64,000 nucleotides of DNA from Lysobacter sp. MMG2 (lineage in GTDB: Bacteria; Pseudomonadota; Gammaproteobacteria; Xanthomonadales; Xanthomonadaceae): the NCBI RefSeq assembly GCF_016735495.2, contig NZ_JAERQY020000002.1:372001-436000 (forward strand), read 5' to 3'. The notes under the pieces were generated by a model. It made no database searches. It was not told the origin of the DNA and saw only the letters and a program-made list of their open reading frames with translations. The translations under genes were made by a program, and so were the position numbers. Positions 18,800 to 26,125 of the stretch are shown here, one piece after another (the first letter of the stretch is position 1; each line of letters opens with the position of its first letter).

Positions 18800-19052
18800 C
18801 AGGAGGGGGCGTCGTCGGCGTTCAGCGGTGGGCGATGGTAGTGCTCATGTCGCACGCTCGGCCGGCGAAATTGCCGCGGGCCACCTCAATCCTGCCTCCG
18901 GCCGTTTGCCGGAGCACGGTAGGAAGTGTTGGGGCTGCGCATGGCCAAGTCAACGCCTGCGCGGCCGCGACGCGCTCGCCCCCCTACAATCGACCTGCTC
19001 CGGCGCTCCGGCAAGGCACGCCGCCGCTGCGAACGAAAGGGACAGGTGATCG

Positions 19053-20750
19053 ATGCGCAAGCGCAGGTGGTTTGGCGGACTGGTCCTCGTACTCGCGGCG
19101 ACGGTGGGCCTGATGGTCGCCCTCGACGGCGACGTGGCCGGCATGGTGCATGGCCGCGCATCGGCGACGTCGCAGCGCCATGCGGCGATCCCGGCGGCGG
19201 ATCTCGAACGCGCCGGCCCCGGCCTCGCCTACTTCGCCTTCGGCGACTTTTCGTCCCTCGACACGGACACGCTGCGGGTCTCCGCGGCACCGTGGACGCT
19301 GACCAGCGCGCTTCTGGCGTTGCAGGAGACCGGCGGCGATCCGGCAACGGTGAGTCCGCGGCATGTCGAAGCGGCCCTGCGGCGTTGGGGCTTCCTCTAC
19401 CCGGAGCGGATCGGCAACTGGCCATCGAACACCTTGCCGCCCGCGCAGCCGGCGCAGCCACTCGGGCAGAACCTCGGCCATGCGGAGCGCCTGCTGCCGC
19501 CTATGGCGCTGACCATCGGCAACCTGGGTTGCGCGGCCTGCCACGCCGGCGTGATGTACGACGCCCGGGGCCGTCCCGACCCGGATCGCGCATGGCTCGG
19601 TACGCCCAACACATCGCTGAACCTGGGCGCCTACACCCGGGGCCTGTACCGCGCCATGCGCGATCAGGGTGGCGACGACGCCCGCGTATGGGCCGCCATC
19701 GATCGCCTGTATCCGGACCTGGATCCGCGAGAGCGACTCACGCTGCGCTTCGTCGTCCTGCCGGAGCTGCGACGTCGCACCGCGGAACTCGGGGCCGCTG
19801 GCGCCGACGACCTGCTGCCCTTCGTCTCGGGCACGCCGGGCGCGACCAACGGCTTCGATTCACTGCGCCGCCGCCTGGGGCTGATCCCAACGGGAGAGCA
19901 CGTGCCCCTCAGTGCGCTCAATTCCATTCCCGAACTCGGCGACCGCGTGATGCGCAGCCGCCTGCTCAACACCGGCGCCTATGGCGTTCCCGGCGAATCG
20001 GACGCACGACCGCTGACGCGCGACGACCTGGATGACGAACACCTGCAGGACCTCGCCGGCATCGTGGCGTACTTCACCGTGCCCAGCATGGGGGTCACTC
20101 CGGAAGCGGCGGCCTCGCACATCGGCGACGTCGCCGGGATCATGCACTGGTTGCGCGACTATCGCCCGCAGCCCTTCCCTGCCCGCGTGGATCGCACCGT
20201 CGCGGCGAACGGGCACACGCTGTACGCCGCGAACTGCGAGCGCTGCCACGGCCGCTACGACGACTCGCTGCAGCGGCCGCGACTGGTGGCGTTCCCGAAC
20301 TGGGAAGGCGACGTCGGTACCGATCGCGTGCGCGCGGCGCAGTTCACGCCGCAGGTCGCGGGGGCGATCAACCGGTCCAGCTACGGCCGCCACCTCGATG
20401 TGCGCGTGGCGCAGCGCTACAGCGCACCTCCGCTGGCCGGACTCTGGTCGAGCGCGCCGTACCTGCATAACGGCAGCATTCCGACGCTGTGGCAGCTCAT
20501 GACGCCGGCCGAGCGGGCCGTCGAGTTTCCGGTGGGCGGGCACGCCCTCGACTTCACCGCGATCGGCATCGCGCTGCACTGCGATGCGCAGCGGCACTGC
20601 CGCTATCCGTCGGGATACACGCCGTTCTCGGAACCGGTGGTGTTCGACACGCGTCGCCCGGGCCTGGCCAACGCCGGGCACGAGCGCGAGTTCGACGGCA
20701 TGAGCGACGCGGACAAGCGCGCGCTCATCGAGTACCTCAAGCTGCTGTAA
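19053..20750 (+). CDS. Di-heme c-type cytochrome, exported
   Basis: A 565-residue periplasmic or membrane-anchored protein with an N-terminal hydrophobic segment (residues 7-24). Two heme c sites are visible: C160-A-A-C163-H164 and C395-E-R-C398-H399. The later block SSAPYLHNGSIPTLWQLM is typical of the di-heme cytochrome c peroxidase/MauG/RoxA superfamily. A rubber-oxygenase-type dioxygenase (RoxA/RoxB) is one possible relative because of length and spacing, but I cannot confirm the key residues, so the substrate is left open. Its 3' end overlaps the converging nitroreductase-like gene by 14 bases. No dedicated partner cytochrome or cytochrome-maturation gene is nearby. Confidence 0.85.
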   Translation: MRKRRWFGGLVLVLAATVGLMVALDGDVAGMVHGRASATSQRHAAIPAADLERAGPGLAYFAFGDFSSLDTDTLRVSAAPWTLTSALLALQETGGDPATVSPRHVEAALRRWGFLYPERIGNWPSNTLPPAQPAQPLGQNLGHAERLLPPMALTIGNLGCAACHAGVMYDARGRPDPDRAWLGTPNTSLNLGAYTRGLYRAMRDQGGDDARVWAAIDRLYPDLDPRERLTLRFVVLPELRRRTAELGAAGADDLLPFVSGTPGATNGFDSLRRRLGLIPTGEHVPLSALNSIPELGDRVMRSRLLNTGAYGVPGESDARPLTRDDLDDEHLQDLAGIVAYFTVPSMGVTPEAAASHIGDVAGIMHWLRDYRPQPFPARVDRTVAANGHTLYAANCERCHGRYDDSLQRPRLVAFPNWEGDVGTDRVRAAQFTPQVAGAINRSSYGRHLDVRVAQRYSAPPLAGLWSSAPYLHNGSIPTLWQLMTPAERAVEFPVGGHALDFTAIGIALHCDAQRHCRYPSGYTPFSEPVVFDTRRPGLANAGHEREFDGMSDADKRALIEYLKLL

Positions 20751-21738
20751 GCACGTCCACCGGAAGCCGCACGCGGGCGGGCGCGGTGCCGGCGGACTTG
20801 CCGACGCGCAGCGCCGCCAGCAGGCGGCGCTGCGCGGGAAGGGACAGACGCGAGGCGATTTCCTCTGCAGCGGACGGGTCGTCGATTGCCGCCGACATCG
20901 GCCACGCGGCGAACCCCAGCGACGTGAGTTCGAGCCAACGCCGGTAGAGCACGCGCCCGGACTGGAGTGGCGATTCCTCCGCCGGACGATGCAGCAGCAC
21001 GATCGCGCTGGCCGTGACACTGCGCGCGCGCTCGCCCACCAGCGCCGTCGCCAATCCCAGGCGATCCAGCCACGGGAACGCACCGCCCAGCACCGCATGC
21101 GCGCCCGCGGCTTCCAGCACGCCCATGTGCAACGCCTCGCGATTCATGCCGTCGCGTTCGTACTGCGGATGCCGGCGCGACAGCCGCATCCAGCGGCACA
21201 GCTCCTTGCGCCATTCGCGGTCGCGCAGGAAGCCCACCGTCGCGCGATCGGCAAGGTCCGCGAGCCATGCACGATCGTGCGGAACGGTGACGAGATGCGT
21301 GTCGTCGACGGTCGATGCCCAGCGTCCCAGCGCCTGCGTCGCCTCGTGGCCCGGATCGGCGAATCCGCCCCGCCAGGTGTGTCGGTCATCGATCCATCGG
21401 GCGAGCGGATCCGCCGTCGTGGCCCCATGGGCGATCAGGCGCGCCATCGGACGCAACGCCGGCGAGGCATCCGGTCCCGGTGCCTCCTCCACCGCAGCGA
21501 CGCCGATGCCCAGCGCACCCAGCGCGAGCACCGTGCCTTCCAGTGCGGCGCCGCAGGACAGGGCGAAGTCCCGATCGGTGGGATCGGCACAGGGCAAACG
21601 GCGTGCGACGTCGCCCATCAGCAGGATCGAGCCGTCGCCCTCGAAGCGCCAGCGCGCCGGCTGCGTGTTGTGCGCAGACGGCGCCAGCCTCGCCATCTCG
21701 ACCACGCGCCGCCGGGCGTCCATATCCAGCACGTTCAT
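20737..21738 (-). CDS. Nitroreductase-like protein (Acg/Rv1355c C-terminal type)
   Basis: A 333-residue flavoprotein-like protein. The N-terminal motif LAPSAHNTQPARW (S21-x2-N24-x-Q26-P27) is the FMN-phosphate-binding signature of the nitroreductase fold, and HPQYERDGMNREAL with later helices fits the long Acg/Rv3131-like branch, which is a fused two-repeat nitroreductase. Many members of that branch have an altered FMN site and may not be reductases. In mycobacteria this type of domain is fused to a ThiF-like domain (Rv1355c); here the ThiF-like gene lies in the same operon, which supports a joint role. The ATG at 21738 overlaps the end of the previous gene by four bases. Confidence 0.75.
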   Translation of the reverse strand: MNVLDMDARRRVVEMARLAPSAHNTQPARWRFEGDGSILLMGDVARRLPCADPTDRDFALSCGAALEGTVLALGALGIGVAAVEEAPGPDASPALRPMARLIAHGATTADPLARWIDDRHTWRGGFADPGHEATQALGRWASTVDDTHLVTVPHDRAWLADLADRATVGFLRDREWRKELCRWMRLSRRHPQYERDGMNREALHMGVLEAAGAHAVLGGAFPWLDRLGLATALVGERARSVTASAIVLLHRPAEESPLQSGRVLYRRWLELTSLGFAAWPMSAAIDDPSAAEEIASRLSLPAQRRLLAALRVGKSAGTAPARVRLPVDVLTAA

Positions 21739-22847
21739 GCCCGCAACGCCTTGCGGAACAGGTGCAGCCGATGCAACGCCGTGGCACCCATCTTCCGCTT
21801 CTGCGCGAGGCTGGCGTGGTTGGTGTCCGAGATCCAGGTGCCGCCCAGCGTCGCGTAGCCGGCACGCTGCATGGCGCCGAGGATCCGATGCAGCACCACG
21901 GCGTTGACGCCCTGCCCCTGCAGACGGCTGATGACACCCGAGAAGATCAGCACCGCGCGGTCGCGACGCATGCGGTGGCGAAGGAAGTGCCAGGGCGTGG
22001 CCAGGCCGAGCCGCGAGCGCGTGGCACGCAGGAACGGATTGAGGTCCGGAATGCAGATGATGCAGGCGGCCGGTTCGCCGCGATGATGGAGCACGGCGGA
22101 GATGCGCGGATCCATGATCCACTTCATTTCCTTCGCCTGGAAATGGAACTCCTCCGCCGACACGGGCACGAACATCGGATTCTTCGCGAACGCGTCGTTG
22201 AGGATCACACGCGCGTCCTCCATGCGCTGGTCGATCGTGCTCCAGGTCACCGGCGCGAAGGAGAACTCCGGCGAGTCGAGGATCGCGCGCTGCGCCGGCC
22301 CCGTGAGCGACTCCAGCGCGATCGAGCCGACGCGGTTCTCGAAGGTGCTCATGGGGAAGAAGGCGGTGTAGCCGTTCTCTTCCAGCAGGCGCGGGATGTG
22401 CGGCGGATTGTGGATGAGGTCGGTGTAAGGCGGATGCTCAAAACCGCCGGTCTGCACGCCGATCTGTTGCATGGCGGTGAGGTTGAAGTTGCCGGCGATC
22501 TCGGCGAATCCACGGTTCCTTGCCCAGTCTTCGGCCGCGCCCAGCAGCGCGCGCGCCGCATCAGCGTCGTCGGCGCAGTCGAAATAGCCGAAATAGGCCC
22601 GGTCGAAGCCATGCAGCGCGTTCGACGCGGCGTGAACGTGCGCCGTGATGCGACCGAGCACGCGACCGTCCCGATGCGCGGTGAACCAGGTGAACGTCGC
22701 ATCGTCCGGGAACAGCGGGTTGATGCCCGCGGCAAGGAAGCGCCGCAGGTCGCTCTTCATCGGCGAGACGTACAGGCTGTCCGGCCCGTAGGCCGAAAAC
22801 GGCGCTTCGAAGAAGGCCTCGAAATCACGCTCCCTGAGCTGCAGCAC
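21735..22847 (-). CDS. GNAT-like protein of the YghO family
   Basis: About 370 residues. The first part carries the family pattern of YghO-like acetyltransferase-fold proteins: DFEAFFEAPFSAYGPDSLYV, then NPLFPDDATFTWF, then RDGRVLGRITAHVH, then FGYFDCADDADAARALL, then GFEHPPYTDLIHNPPHIPRL. The second half (VILNDAFAKNPMFVPVSAEE onward) is a second GNAT-like repeat. Substrate unknown; related genes often sit in lipid or secondary-metabolite clusters. The GTG at 22847 is chosen because GGGAGG lies just upstream and the family N-terminus begins there; the spacing is short, so a start a few codons earlier is possible. It overlaps the preceding membrane-protein gene by 23 bases, which suggests translational coupling. 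Confidence 0.72.
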   Translation of the reverse strand: MLQLRERDFEAFFEAPFSAYGPDSLYVSPMKSDLRRFLAAGINPLFPDDATFTWFTAHRDGRVLGRITAHVHAASNALHGFDRAYFGYFDCADDADAARALLGAAEDWARNRGFAEIAGNFNLTAMQQIGVQTGGFEHPPYTDLIHNPPHIPRLLEENGYTAFFPMSTFENRVGSIALESLTGPAQRAILDSPEFSFAPVTWSTIDQRMEDARVILNDAFAKNPMFVPVSAEEFHFQAKEMKWIMDPRISAVLHHRGEPAACIICIPDLNPFLRATRSRLGLATPWHFLRHRMRRDRAVLIFSGVISRLQGQGVNAVVLHRILGAMQRAGYATLGGTWISDTNHASLAQKRKMGATALHRLHLFRKALRA

Positions 22848-24045
22848 ATTCCCTCCCGCGTTCCGAAACGAGTTGCACCATGCGCTGCACGGCGGCCAGT
22901 TCGACCTCCGCACCCGGTGCAGCGGCAAGCACCGGCATGTTCAGCGCGGCCAGCGTCAGCGGCTCGCGCGCGATGTGCATCAGATGGCTGGCGCCGTAGC
23001 GCTGCATCAGGCTGTCGACCTGTTCGCGCGCGTTTTCGTCCAGGCCCGCTGCGTCCAGCTGCCCCGCGCGCAGCAGCGGCCGCCGCGCGAACACCCCCTG
23101 GAGCAGCGCGTGGTCGAAGTCCCGCAATTCGCCGGCGCGCAGGATCAGCAGGCCGTCGACCTGCGCGTGACGCTGCAGCCCGCCGAGGAAGGCATCCGTC
23201 CCGGACAGGTCGCCTTCCGCGAGCAGACGCAACATGCCGCGACGCCGCTCTTCCGCGCGCAGCTCGAAGCCGTCGTTGGCGATCGCGGCCAGCAGCGTGG
23301 CCGCGCTGCACACGGCCAGCGCCTGCACCGTCTGCGTCGGATCGAAGCCGGCCAACCATGCCACCGCGCCGCCAGCCGCCAGTCCGCAACCGATGAACGC
23401 AAGGAATGCACGGATGCTGTCGCGATGCGCTCGCTGACCGCGACCCAGGCCCAGCGCCAACCAGCAGAACGCGAGGATCGCGATGCCGGCCAGGCGGACC
23501 GGAATCGGAAATCCGGGGAAGCGGAAATCGGTGGCGAGCAGCGGCACGATCAACAACAGCGACAGCGCGATGCGGTCGATGCTGCGGTTCTCCAGCGCGG
23601 ACAATGATGCGCGGTCGCGACCGAGCAGCAACCACGCCATCGCCAGGAATCCCAGCAACTGGAAGGCCAGCAGCGCAATCGTCCGCCACGGATACGCCCA
23701 CGGCGTCGGCACCCACGCCAGCACCGCGAACACGACCGCCCCGACCACGGCAAGCGCCTTCAGAGTCGTCGGCGAATGCCGGCGCAACAGCCCTTCACAG
23801 AACAGCAGTACCGCCAGCGGCACCAGTCCGGCGGTCGTCAGCGTGAGCGCGTTGAACGGCGATGGCGCGCCCCACCACACCAGCACGCGACTGACCAGAA
23901 TGACGGCCAGCACGCCCAGCCCGAACGACAGCCGCATGACCAGCCCGTCGCCGGGATGCCGGCGACGCAAGGCACTGATGAGCACCAGCAACCCGAGCGC
24001 CCCGGCAACAGAGACGAAACTGTCGGCGATCAGGTAGGCGCTCAT
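22825..24045 (-). CDS. Multi-spanning membrane protein with cytosolic C-terminal domain
   Basis: A 406-residue protein of unknown family. Eight or nine hydrophobic helices cover residues 5-270, for example SVAGALGLLVLISAL, GLGVLAVILVSRVLVWW, LAVVGAVVFAVLAWV and IALLAFQLLGFLAMAW. The last 130 residues are soluble, beginning around ELRAEERRRGMLRLLAEGDL, and predicted mostly helical. No transporter signature, histidine kinase or catalytic motif is visible. Its ATG overlaps the stop of the ThiF-like gene (ATGA), and its own 3' end overlaps the YghO-like gene, so all three are probably translated in concert. A membrane scaffold or carrier for the operon's product is possible but unproven. Confidence 0.72.
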   Translation of the reverse strand: MSAYLIADSFVSVAGALGLLVLISALRRRHPGDGLVMRLSFGLGVLAVILVSRVLVWWGAPSPFNALTLTTAGLVPLAVLLFCEGLLRRHSPTTLKALAVVGAVVFAVLAWVPTPWAYPWRTIALLAFQLLGFLAMAWLLLGRDRASLSALENRSIDRIALSLLLIVPLLATDFRFPGFPIPVRLAGIAILAFCWLALGLGRGQRAHRDSIRAFLAFIGCGLAAGGAVAWLAGFDPTQTVQALAVCSAATLLAAIANDGFELRAEERRRGMLRLLAEGDLSGTDAFLGGLQRHAQVDGLLILRAGELRDFDHALLQGVFARRPLLRAGQLDAAGLDENAREQVDSLMQRYGASHLMHIAREPLTLAALNMPVLAAAPGAEVELAAVQRMVQLVSERGRECAAAQGA

Positions 24046-24935
24046 GCCGCCGCTCCGTCGAGCAGCTTGCGGATCCCATGACGCACCAGCGGCCGCAGCA
24101 CGGCGGCCGCCAGCGCATTGCGCGGGTGCTCGACGCGCGCGGTGTACGGATTGAAGAACCAGCCGCGGCAATCGCAGGCGGTCGTGCGTCCCAGCAGCAG
24201 CGCGATCGTCTCGTACGCCATCAGCATGCCGGTGGTGATGACCATGGGCGCGAACGACATGCGGCTTCGTCGCCCGGCCGCGACGTCGGCCGCCAGGCCC
24301 ATGTCGATGTAGTTGCGCGACGACGAGTGCAGCAGCACATGCTCCGCCTCGCACAGGAACGCGGCGCGGCGCTGCGCCTCGTCGACCCGGTCCCAGGCGG
24401 TGTCCCGCGTGGGATAGCCCAGGCGCTCTTCCGGCATGGGCTCGTGCGGCCGTGTGACGTACACCGACGGCAGCGGCGATGCGTAGGCATCCACGACGCT
24501 GCGCTCCAGCCGGCGCGATGTGCGGTACAGCAGCAGCGACGCCGCCAGGTCGTCGGTGCCGTTCACCACCGCACCGCTACGGCGCACCGCCGCCTCGACA
24601 TGGTCCGGCCAGTCCCCGTGCAGGACCGTGAGGTCGAGTTGCGGATTGATGCGACGGCACCGTTCCGCCGTCGCTTCGGCCTTGTGTTCGCCCACCGTGT
24701 CGGTGAACGCGAACACCTGCCGGTTGAGATTGGACATCTCGAAATGGTCGATGTCGGCCAGCACGAGCCGCCCGACGCCCGCCCGGGCCAGCGCGAGCAC
24801 GCATGCGCCGCCCATGCCGCCGACACCGCAGACGAACACGGTCGACTCGCGCAGGCGCTGCTGTTCCTGTGCACTGACGAAACCCAGGTTGCGATCGCTG
24901 AACGTCGCGTAGTCGAATGCCTCTAGCGATTCCAT
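24042..24935 (-). CDS. ThiF/MoeB-family (E1-like) adenylyltransferase
   Basis: A 297-residue Rossmann-fold protein of the E1-like superfamily, which activates a carboxylate by adenylation. The nucleotide loop G37-V-G-G-M-G42, the acidic D61-I-D63 and the signature SNLNRQVF (N69, R72) are intact, followed by K86-x-EATAERCRRINP and the ATP-side motif NGTDDLAAS. Unlike ThiF, MoeB and eukaryotic E1s it has no pair of zinc-binding CxxC motifs: only CDCRGWF near the C-terminus. There is no ubiquitin-like or ThiS-like partner in the window, so the acceptor is likely a small molecule or another protein. The ATG at 24935 is chosen because GGGGAAGG lies eight bases upstream. Confidence 0.85.
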   Translation of the reverse strand: MESLEAFDYATFSDRNLGFVSAQEQQRLRESTVFVCGVGGMGGACVLALARAGVGRLVLADIDHFEMSNLNRQVFAFTDTVGEHKAEATAERCRRINPQLDLTVLHGDWPDHVEAAVRRSGAVVNGTDDLAASLLLYRTSRRLERSVVDAYASPLPSVYVTRPHEPMPEERLGYPTRDTAWDRVDEAQRRAAFLCEAEHVLLHSSSRNYIDMGLAADVAAGRRSRMSFAPMVITTGMLMAYETIALLLGRTTACDCRGWFFNPYTARVEHPRNALAAAVLRPLVRHGIRKLLDGAAA

Positions 24936-25873
24936 GGACGCAGCCTTCCCCATTCGCGATCGCTGTCGAACCAGTGCAGCACCGGCAACGCCAGCCGCTG
25001 GACGACCAGCACGCCGGCCGACAGCAGCACCTGCGCCCACGCGGCGCGCGGCACGCTGTGCCGCAGGTAACGCACGGCGGCCTCCAGGTCCATGCGACCG
25101 AGCTGCAGGACATCGTCGCCGCGCGCGTAGTCGAGCTCGCGCGCGCAGAAGTCGTTGTAGGCCGGCTTGCGGTGCTTCTGGGCCTCGTCGAAGGTCTTCT
25201 TCAGCGCGTCCGAGCCGCCGGTGTAGGCGTTGGTGATGACGAAGCGCTGCTCGTCGAATACGGCGTCCGCGCCCACGCCGAACACGTGCCGATGGCCGGC
25301 CATGATCTGCCGCGCCGCGAGCAGCTGCACGAAACGCCGGCGCGCACCGGGATGCGGCCCCGGGAACACGTCGGAAAAAGTCTCCGCGACCATGCCGACG
25401 ATGGCCGGCACCTGCGTCACGTTGGAGACCCACAGCGGCCGCATCTGCTTGCGCACCAGCAACAGGAAGCACGACAGGCCGTACAGCACCCACGACAGCC
25501 CCTGGCTGCGTACGTCGGGATCGACCATCACCAGGCCCAGGTGCAGCACTTCCTCCGGACGGCCATCGACCTCCAGCGCCATCGCGGCCATCGCGTTGAA
25601 CGCCACGGGCCGGCGATCGGATCGACGGTAGACGACGGTGACGATGCTGTGCGCCAGTCGTGTGCGGTCGCCGGAGAAGACGCCGTAGGTCAGGCTGCCC
25701 GCCGGGAGGGTGCGGGATGCCACCTCGCGCAGCTCCGCGGACAGGGTGTCGAGCTCGGCCGCCGGCATCCAGCAACCGGGGCGCTCGAGAATGCGGGTGT
25801 CGAAGTCGCGGCCGGCGCGCAGGCGCACGTCCAGATACCGCTGCGCGATCGATTTAAGCCACACGCTCAGCAC
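24923..25873 (-). CDS. GNAT-like acyltransferase-fold protein, first gene of the operon
   Basis: A 316-residue protein. The segment LHLGLVMVDPDVRSQGLSWV is the beta4-alpha3 acetyl-CoA motif of GNAT enzymes (R/Q-x2-G-x), preceded by strand-rich VFNAMAAMALEVD. The C-terminal 60 residues include a hydrophobic stretch (AWAQVLLSAGVLVVQRLA), so the protein may be membrane-attached. GTG at 25873 is preferred as start because GGAGG lies seven bases upstream; GTG 25891 is six codons earlier with no ribosome site. It opens a five-gene operon in which adjacent genes overlap or touch, so the product probably works with the E1-like and nitroreductase-like proteins. Substrate unknown. Confidence 0.7.
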   Translation of the reverse strand: MLSVWLKSIAQRYLDVRLRAGRDFDTRILERPGCWMPAAELDTLSAELREVASRTLPAGSLTYGVFSGDRTRLAHSIVTVVYRRSDRRPVAFNAMAAMALEVDGRPEEVLHLGLVMVDPDVRSQGLSWVLYGLSCFLLLVRKQMRPLWVSNVTQVPAIVGMVAETFSDVFPGPHPGARRRFVQLLAARQIMAGHRHVFGVGADAVFDEQRFVITNAYTGGSDALKKTFDEAQKHRKPAYNDFCARELDYARGDDVLQLGRMDLEAAVRYLRHSVPRAAWAQVLLSAGVLVVQRLALPVLHWFDSDREWGRLRPWNR

Positions 25874-26010
25874 GTCTGCCCCTCCGGACACTCCCCGGCA
25901 CTTGCGGGCCGTCCCGTCCTTGCGGCCCAGCGTGTATCTGTATCACGCCGGCCTGGGACTGTCGCCCCGGCCCCTCGGGTCCCGGCGCCAATGCGCCCTC
26001 CGGAAAAACA

Positions 26011-26038
26011 AACGGCGCGATCCGGAGATCGCGCCGTT
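26011..26038 (-). terminator. Rho-independent terminator after tRNA-Val
   Basis: Perfect 12-bp arms (AACGGCGCGATC with GATCGCGCCGTT) and a CGGA loop, followed on the minus strand by TTTGTTTTT, start 13 bases after the tRNA-Val gene. A textbook intrinsic terminator. Confidence 0.9.
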
Positions 26039-26050
26039 CGACCACATAAG

Positions 26051-26125
26051 TGGTGGGCGGTACAGGGTTCGAACCTGTGACCCCTACCATGTCAAGGTAG
26101 TGCTCTACCGCTGAGCTAACCGCCC
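26051..26125 (-). tRNA. tRNA-Val (GAC)
   Basis: 75-base cloverleaf with encoded CCA on the minus strand. The acceptor stem is GGGCGGT with ACCGCCC, the D-arm begins TAGCTCAG, the T-arm contains GGTTCGAACCC, and the anticodon loop TTGACAT gives GAC. Confidence 0.97.

Follow-up and report, generated by a model that had tools for sequence, protein, structure and literature searches.

What do five overlapping genes make when they combine two GNAT-type proteins, a ThiF-type adenylating enzyme, a membrane protein and a flavoprotein? The set lies on the minus strand at positions 20737 to 25873 of a 64,000-nucleotide stretch of DNA from Lysobacter sp. MMG2 (contig NZ_JAERQY020000002.1, positions 372,001 to 436,000), hereafter called the window. 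The answer that we tentatively favor is that this operon, moved by horizontal transfer, builds a small acylated metabolite at the inner membrane through chemistry like that of oxazolone synthesis. A prediction made earlier from the sequence alone (the original prediction) had listed the five genes with their protein types, and our analysis confirmed both, settling the membrane protein at nine helices. The genes, called P1 to P5 in operon order, are as follows.

24923-25873, minus strand: P1, GNAT-fold protein of 316 amino acids (aa), first gene of the operon; assigned by fold and conserved residues
24042-24935, minus strand: P2, ThiF/E1-like adenylating enzyme of 297 aa; assigned by family match, with the adenylation residues kept and without CxxC
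22825-24045, minus strand: P3, nine-helix membrane protein of 406 aa with a cytosolic alpha/beta C-terminal domain; assigned by hydrophobicity
21735-22847, minus strand: P4, YghO-like GNAT protein of 370 aa, an optional member; assigned by family match
20737-21738, minus strand: P5, Acg-like flavin mononucleotide (FMN) oxidoreductase of the nitroreductase superfamily, 333 aa; assigned by family match

The successive overlaps, P1/P2, P2/P3, P3/P4 and P4/P5, measure 13, 4, 23 and 4 bases.

The ThiF-like enzyme P2 and its relatives

Described oxazolone pathways consist of an acyltransferase, a ThiF cyclase and a flavin-dependent oxidase (PMC10404671, PMC12856293). The best NCBIfam model for P2 was PRK08223, at 114 bits and under the cut-off of 266, followed by the thiazole ThiF model at 90 bits. 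For comparison we used the ThiF proteins of the seven loci scoring highest with PRK14851 (L152 to L158); this oxazolone-type set is defined by model score and gene neighbors and is distinct from the characterized OxzB, TyzB and TrzS. Two of the seven were scanned, and both passed PRK08223 (406 and 455 bits), one lying beside an FeeM N-acyl amino acid synthase (183.9 bits) and the other beside a PF13444/FeeM acyltransferase. The acyltransferases scanned at three of the seven loci matched FeeM and/or PF13444; they adjoin the ThiF gene in L152 and L158 and lie about 4 kb from it in L154. L158 also encodes an oxidase resembling that of ThiF-oxidase fusions.

In a tree of 67 rows, 35 P2 proteins grouped with the seven oxazolone-type ThiFs and one Rhodococcus protein, separated from 24 references by a split supported at 97/87. 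The references were named MoeB- or TcdA-like by eye, 130 residues were trimmed from two of them that are rhodanese fusions, and the tree left out the copy of the window (L139) and a 539-aa protein from L119. An N-terminal RN-x-G motif, a pattern defined after the alignment had been viewed, occurs in 34 of the 35 P2 rows and in all seven oxazolone-type ThiFs, and in none of the 24 references. The ATP-binding glycine loop and residues R15, K85 and D128 are invariant across the 35 P2 rows, and we take them to match the residues studied in MoeB. By the wording of PMC12856293, D128 would correspond to the adenylation aspartate of TrzS. The original prediction had treated the missing zinc CxxC pair as unusual. 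The pair is indeed missing, but from all 35 family members and from five of the seven oxazolone-type ThiFs, so its absence is not odd. By tree and motif, P2 would be classed as an oxazolone-group ThiF without the zinc CxxC pair, set apart from MoeB- and TcdA-like proteins.

An alternative is conjugation, or synthesis of the type seen for ribosomally synthesized and posttranslationally modified peptides, with P2 adenylating a small protein or peptide at its C terminus, in the manner of MoeB, ThiF, MccB and phage-defense E1 enzymes. We consider this highly improbable. It fits the structure comparisons, which matched P2 to ThiF (best E value, 3e-18), TcdA, MoeB, E1 and MccB, and the matches of P2 to the E1-E2 models of PADLOC-DB (best E value, 9e-17). 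It is opposed by the grouping of P2 and the lack of CxxC described above, and by the partner proteins: as the original prediction had noted, none is of the ubiquitin-like or ThiS type, no Pfam match to such a family being found among P1 to P5, in a search that did not extend to short peptide genes. P2 was also considered as a defense protein and rejected, the PADLOC-DB matches being read as general ThiF similarity; P1, P3, P4 and P5 gave no match to that database at an E value of 1.

Other ThiF-like genes were seen in passing. The host contig C1 encodes, outside the window (L119:7521-9140), the 539-aa protein mentioned above, which has an extra N-terminal region and is perhaps of the E2-E1 type; it was considered as a second oxazolone locus of the host and set aside. 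On the Rhodococcus qingshengii plasmid pN9T4-3 (L120:9840-12723), an IS256 transposase gene lies between the genes for a GNAT N-acyltransferase and a ThiF protein, an arrangement repeated on a second Rhodococcus plasmid (L121); the Rhodococcus ThiF groups near the oxazolone type.

P2 and P5 are gained and lost as a pair

A scan of GTDB genomes returned 243 sites encoding relatives of P1. The best 80 of these and six plasmid loci make up the 86 loci compared here (85 distinct, L036 being the same as L045). The searches that found them used P1, P3 or P4, and since every locus holds P1, its count of 86/86 is by construction. The presence of P1 to P5, and of a cytochrome-like gene described below (CYT), was counted by tblastn, and neighboring genes were called by a script, which missed P1 in L066; absences at the ends of short contigs (L077 and L098, under 4.2 kb) are uncertain.

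P3 was present in 85 loci by tblastn and in the remaining one, L035, by family, and so accompanies P1 everywhere examined. P2 was found in 52 loci, P5 in 51 and P4 in 36, with P1, P2, P4 and P5 together in 35. Both P2 and P5 were present in 50 of the 53 loci having either; the three exceptions include L098, a short contig, and L046, where P4 and P5 are shortened. Another 33 loci held P1 and P3 only. P2 was searched for in 30 of those 33 genomes: 29 had none at an E value of 1e-40, and one has P2 elsewhere. P2 and P5 are gained and lost together, and the loci with P1 and P3 only provide natural controls for what the pair contributes.

P1 is a GNAT protein by fold, in a comparison that covered a listed set of folds. 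Between residues 111 and 119, HLGLVM and DP are invariant in 44 rows, and a hydrophobic helix spans about residues 276 to 301 at the C terminus. P4 resembles Escherichia coli YghO from end to end (25% identity over 375 aa; E value, 7e-33, in a single comparison). P5 reached 150.5 bits with the Acg model NF047509 over residues 12 to 328, under the cut-off of 199, and matched MsAcg (2ymv) end to end by profile (E value, 8e-18).

P3 has nine hydrophobic helices, with the N terminus outside according to the positive-inside rule, a topology that would resemble that of LuxN, and a conserved E84-H90-K96 loop. In another reading, P1 could make an acyl-amino-acid signal that P2 and P5 refine in some strains, and P3 would then be a multipass receptor whose cytosolic domain acts on a partner from another locus. 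We judge this quite unlikely. The fold match of P3 to a 7TM-type receptor, again from a listed set of folds, is, according to the tool, within the chance range for helical bundles, its Pfam match to 7TMR-DISM (E value, 0.0012) is under the family cut-off, Foldseek returned no match at an E value of 0.001, and no kinase or other output domain was found. A PrsK-type sensor was likewise rejected, as comparison of P3 with the PrsK sensor kinase showed no kinship (hhalign probability, 2.6).

In 49 of the 86 loci, the fetched stretch around the cassette contains genes for PspA, YiaAB, a TetR_C_33 regulator and/or an acyltransferase of about 1130 aa that combines MFS, PlsC-like and AMP-binding domains (LplT-PlsC-Aas-like), each neighbor family being identified from one representative. 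PspA is upstream in 22 loci and downstream in 21. P1 and P3 alone are a common arrangement, frequently beside the PspA, YiaAB and TetR genes. These counts partly reflect shared descent, since Bradyrhizobium and Rhodobacterales contribute many of the loci. Such surroundings, together with the hydrophobic C-terminal helix of P1, would suit remodeling of membrane lipids, in which P1 and P4 attach acyl groups to an aminolipid or lipid head group and P2 and P5 modify the lipid, yielding a structural lipid for envelope stress rather than a free oxazolone. We regard this as unlikely: the block inserted in the window contains no PspA, YiaAB, TetR or LplT-PlsC-Aas-like gene, 37 of the 86 loci have none in the fetched stretch, adjacency is no evidence of a shared substrate, and ThiF cyclization is not known to play a part in structural lipids.

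The same arrangement allows a bolder proposal, which we hold to be doubtful. P1 and P3 may form the core of an undescribed system in which the GNAT synthase and a multipass partner dedicated to it make and sense, or place, an acyl-amino-acid in the inner membrane during envelope stress, with PspA, YiaAB and TetR as its usual neighbors; the ThiF protein and the Acg-type oxidase would be a removable pair that turns the product into an oxazolone. If so, a defined class of substrates could be assigned to Acg-type (FDO-B) oxidases, and oxazolones would have a membrane protein dedicated to them.

A horizontally transferred block beside tRNA-Val

The operon forms part of a longer insert, which includes a sixth gene and lies next to a tRNA gene.

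19053-20750, plus strand: CYT, RoxA/cytochrome-c-peroxidase-like dihaem protein of 565 aa with two CxxCH motifs
18960-25990, no strand: inserted block of about 7.0 kb, edges accurate to a few tens of bases
26009-26040, minus strand: terminator-like hairpin behind tRNA-Val, 14 pairs and a T run
26051-26125, minus strand: tRNA-Val (GAC), adjoining the insertion site, upstream of the operon

Upstream of the operon the order is uvrB and then tRNA-Val. From thrS to tRNA-Val/uvrB the distance is 7350 bases here versus 302 to 352 in seven of eight genomes of the same genus and 3412 in the eighth; the count leaves aside five genomes of other families, in which uvrB is farther away or elsewhere. Homology to the empty sites stops near 18960 on the left and restarts near 25990 on the right, showing that the insert consists of the five genes and CYT. 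No copy of the tRNA end, as an attachment repeat, was found at the left edge. The operon probably has its own promoter, because the strong terminator-like hairpin separates it from tRNA-Val; no promoter consensus was found within the inserted block. The same gap carries a different insert of about 3.1 kb in another genome of the genus (L181; G003, C1:2476650-2480400), with proteins that by eye resemble copper nitrite reductase, formylglycine-type and Sco-type proteins, so the gap may be an insertion hotspot.

At an E value of 1e-15, P1 was detected in one of 250 genomes of the window's order, namely the window genome itself, and in eight of 398 genomes of the phylum, again including it. The other seven comprise two with the six-gene form including CYT, three with P1 and P3 beside TetR-PspA-YiaAB, one with P1 and P3, and one with a P1 fragment. 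The P2 family (E value, 1e-60) occurred in three of the 398 genomes, always beside P1. The gene order of the window recurs in Alphaproteobacteria, the class indicated by the record titles of the best 80 of the 243 P1 relatives. The genes are kept together outside close relatives, and the lack of conservation that would have spoken against the original prediction was not observed. In a tree with 46 other P1 proteins, the window's P1 had no supported sister group. The operon is a mobile, horizontally transferred block.

Two weaker signals were discarded. A match to P1 beyond the genus, in genome G036 (E value, 5e-4), overlaps another gene and contains an internal stop; it was judged a chance match and left uncounted. 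Viral contigs gave four pattern matches to P1 and no true relative. Some copies of the cassette seem to be decaying, since in Mesorhizobium sp. ES1-1 (L046:12263-12864) the matches to P4 and P5 are shortened and P2 is missing, and genome G724 (L197) retains an isolated P1 fragment.

CYT is convergent with P5, the ends of the two genes overlapping. It adjoins the cassette in convergent orientation in 10 of the 86 loci, all of which have P1, P2, P4 and P5, and a homologue lies 2.7 and 5.1 kb away in two further loci. PspA and CYT never occur in the same locus (0/86).

Proposed chemistry and relation to described pathways

The oxazolone-like reading draws on the grouping of P2 with oxazolone-type ThiFs and their common RN-x-G motif, on the joint gain and loss of P2 and P5 in a trio of the kind described for oxazolones, on the GNAT fold of P1, and on the membrane-lipid genes near 49 of the 86 loci. 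P1, anchored to the membrane through its C-terminal helix and P3, would N-acylate an amino acid or a similar amine. P2 would then adenylate the free carboxylate with ATP and release a five-membered oxazolone (azlactone) ring through attack by the amide oxygen, requiring neither a ubiquitin-like partner nor a catalytic cysteine. P5 would remove two hydrogens with FMN and O2, before or after cyclization, to give a conjugated (dehydro) product. In the loci that have it, P4 might attach a second acyl group or exchange it. P3, the constant partner of P1, may sense, hold or move the product, and the target of CYT, which is probably periplasmic, could be the product after export or the same redox stress. 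The scheme agrees with the suggestion in the original prediction that a small molecule or lipid is adenylated and acylated at the membrane and then oxidized by a flavoprotein. Our observations concern gene order, conservation, folds, co-occurrence, transfer and the grouping of P2; from them we infer all the reactions, the substrate and the product, and what P3, P4 and CYT do.

Several observations weigh against the oxazolone-like reading. The P2 grouping joins long branches, which according to the tool may be joined falsely, in a tree that contains no characterized OxzB, TyzB or TrzS sequence. P1 matched no Pfam family at an E value of 1, FeeM, Acetyltransf_5 and Autoind_synth included, and so neither PF21926 nor PF13444, the families of FeeM/NasY synthases; it also showed no profile kinship to five FeeM-type enzymes (hhalign probability, 0.1). 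At other loci, four acyltransferases do match PF13444 and/or PF21926. An FeeM type was rejected for both P1 and P4 after no kinship was detected, and the two are not related to each other. The score of P5 is 150 bits for the Acg model versus 43 and 42 with the fusion models PRK14851 and PRK07877; the corresponding values for one OxzB-type oxidase are 50, 46 and 70, and Acg-type proteins scored alongside reach 130 to 338 bits with the Acg model. Compared by hidden Markov model (HMM) score and with this one OxzB-type reference, P5 tentatively points to Acg/FDO-B rather than FDO-A, the oxidase subgroup of oxazolone clusters; no FDO-A reference oxidases were found in plasmids. Current data assign FDO-B (Acg-type) enzymes no part in oxazolone synthesis (PMC10404671). 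P3 lacks a counterpart in the described oxazolone pathways, and the substrate cannot be read from sequence. Finally, clusters of three compound families with NasY, ThiF and nitroreductase have so far given no oxazolone (PMC12479983), so the enzyme trio alone is no proof of one. Because P1 is not FeeM-like, P5 is Acg-like and P3 has no counterpart, the operon was not filed among oxazolone clusters; that it works like one is the likeliest reading, at odds just under even.

The gene set, with its oxazolone-type logic, a conserved membrane protein and often envelope-stress genes nearby, is present in free-living soil and marine Alphaproteobacteria and could thus be studied in harmless strains; it would also open the function of Acg-type flavoproteins to testing. 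PMC12856293 names the physiological role of oxazolones as a major question still unresolved, and its ThiF network of 24 subclusters may include relatives of P2.

Our search of the open-license literature listed no paper that describes this gene set. The original prediction had offered it as an undescribed system, citing the fusion protein Rv1355c as a link between its activities. That view needs qualifying: the trio of enzymes is the described oxazolone set, and Rv1355c is TrzS, an N-acyl oxazolone (tryptazolone) synthase (PMC12856293). It stands as far as P1, P5 and P3 differ.

Among relatives of single members, the Acg family (NF047509; MsAcg) is the best match of P5, though P5 falls under the family cut-off. 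In Mycobacterium tuberculosis none of three FDO-B genes lies near oxazolone genes (PMC10404671). In E. coli K-12, yghO is flanked by glcC and an IS5 element, and its annotation is that of a putative regulator; PMC6199490 has a yghO plasmid in its list of strains.

The clusters for N-acyl (dehydro)tyrosines (stieleriacine, thalassotalic and kyonggic acids), which combine NasY, ThiF and nitroreductase, encode the same kinds of enzymes as the operon. Among kyonggic acid producers, saturated products go with the joint absence of ThiF and nitroreductase (PMC12479983), which resembles the loci with P1 and P3 only. These clusters differ in that P1 is not NasY/FeeM-like, and the term "membrane protein" does not occur in the text of PMC12479983.

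Close parallels are OxzAB of Pseudoalteromonas rubra and both TyzACB and TrzAS of mycobacteria, which, like the operon, encode together an acyltransferase, an ATP-dependent cyclase of the ThiF type and a flavin-dependent oxidase. P2 groups with their type of ThiF and keeps the adenylation aspartate. In contrast, P1 is of another GNAT lineage, P5 is Acg-like by HMM score, and the operon adds P3, P4 and CYT, with P1 and P3 also occurring alone. The ThiF protein and the oxidase are fused in OxzB and TrzS; in the operon they are separate, as are TyzB and TyzC of the tyrazolone pathway, in which TyzACB produces N-acyl tyrazolones by three activities on separate proteins (PMC10404671).

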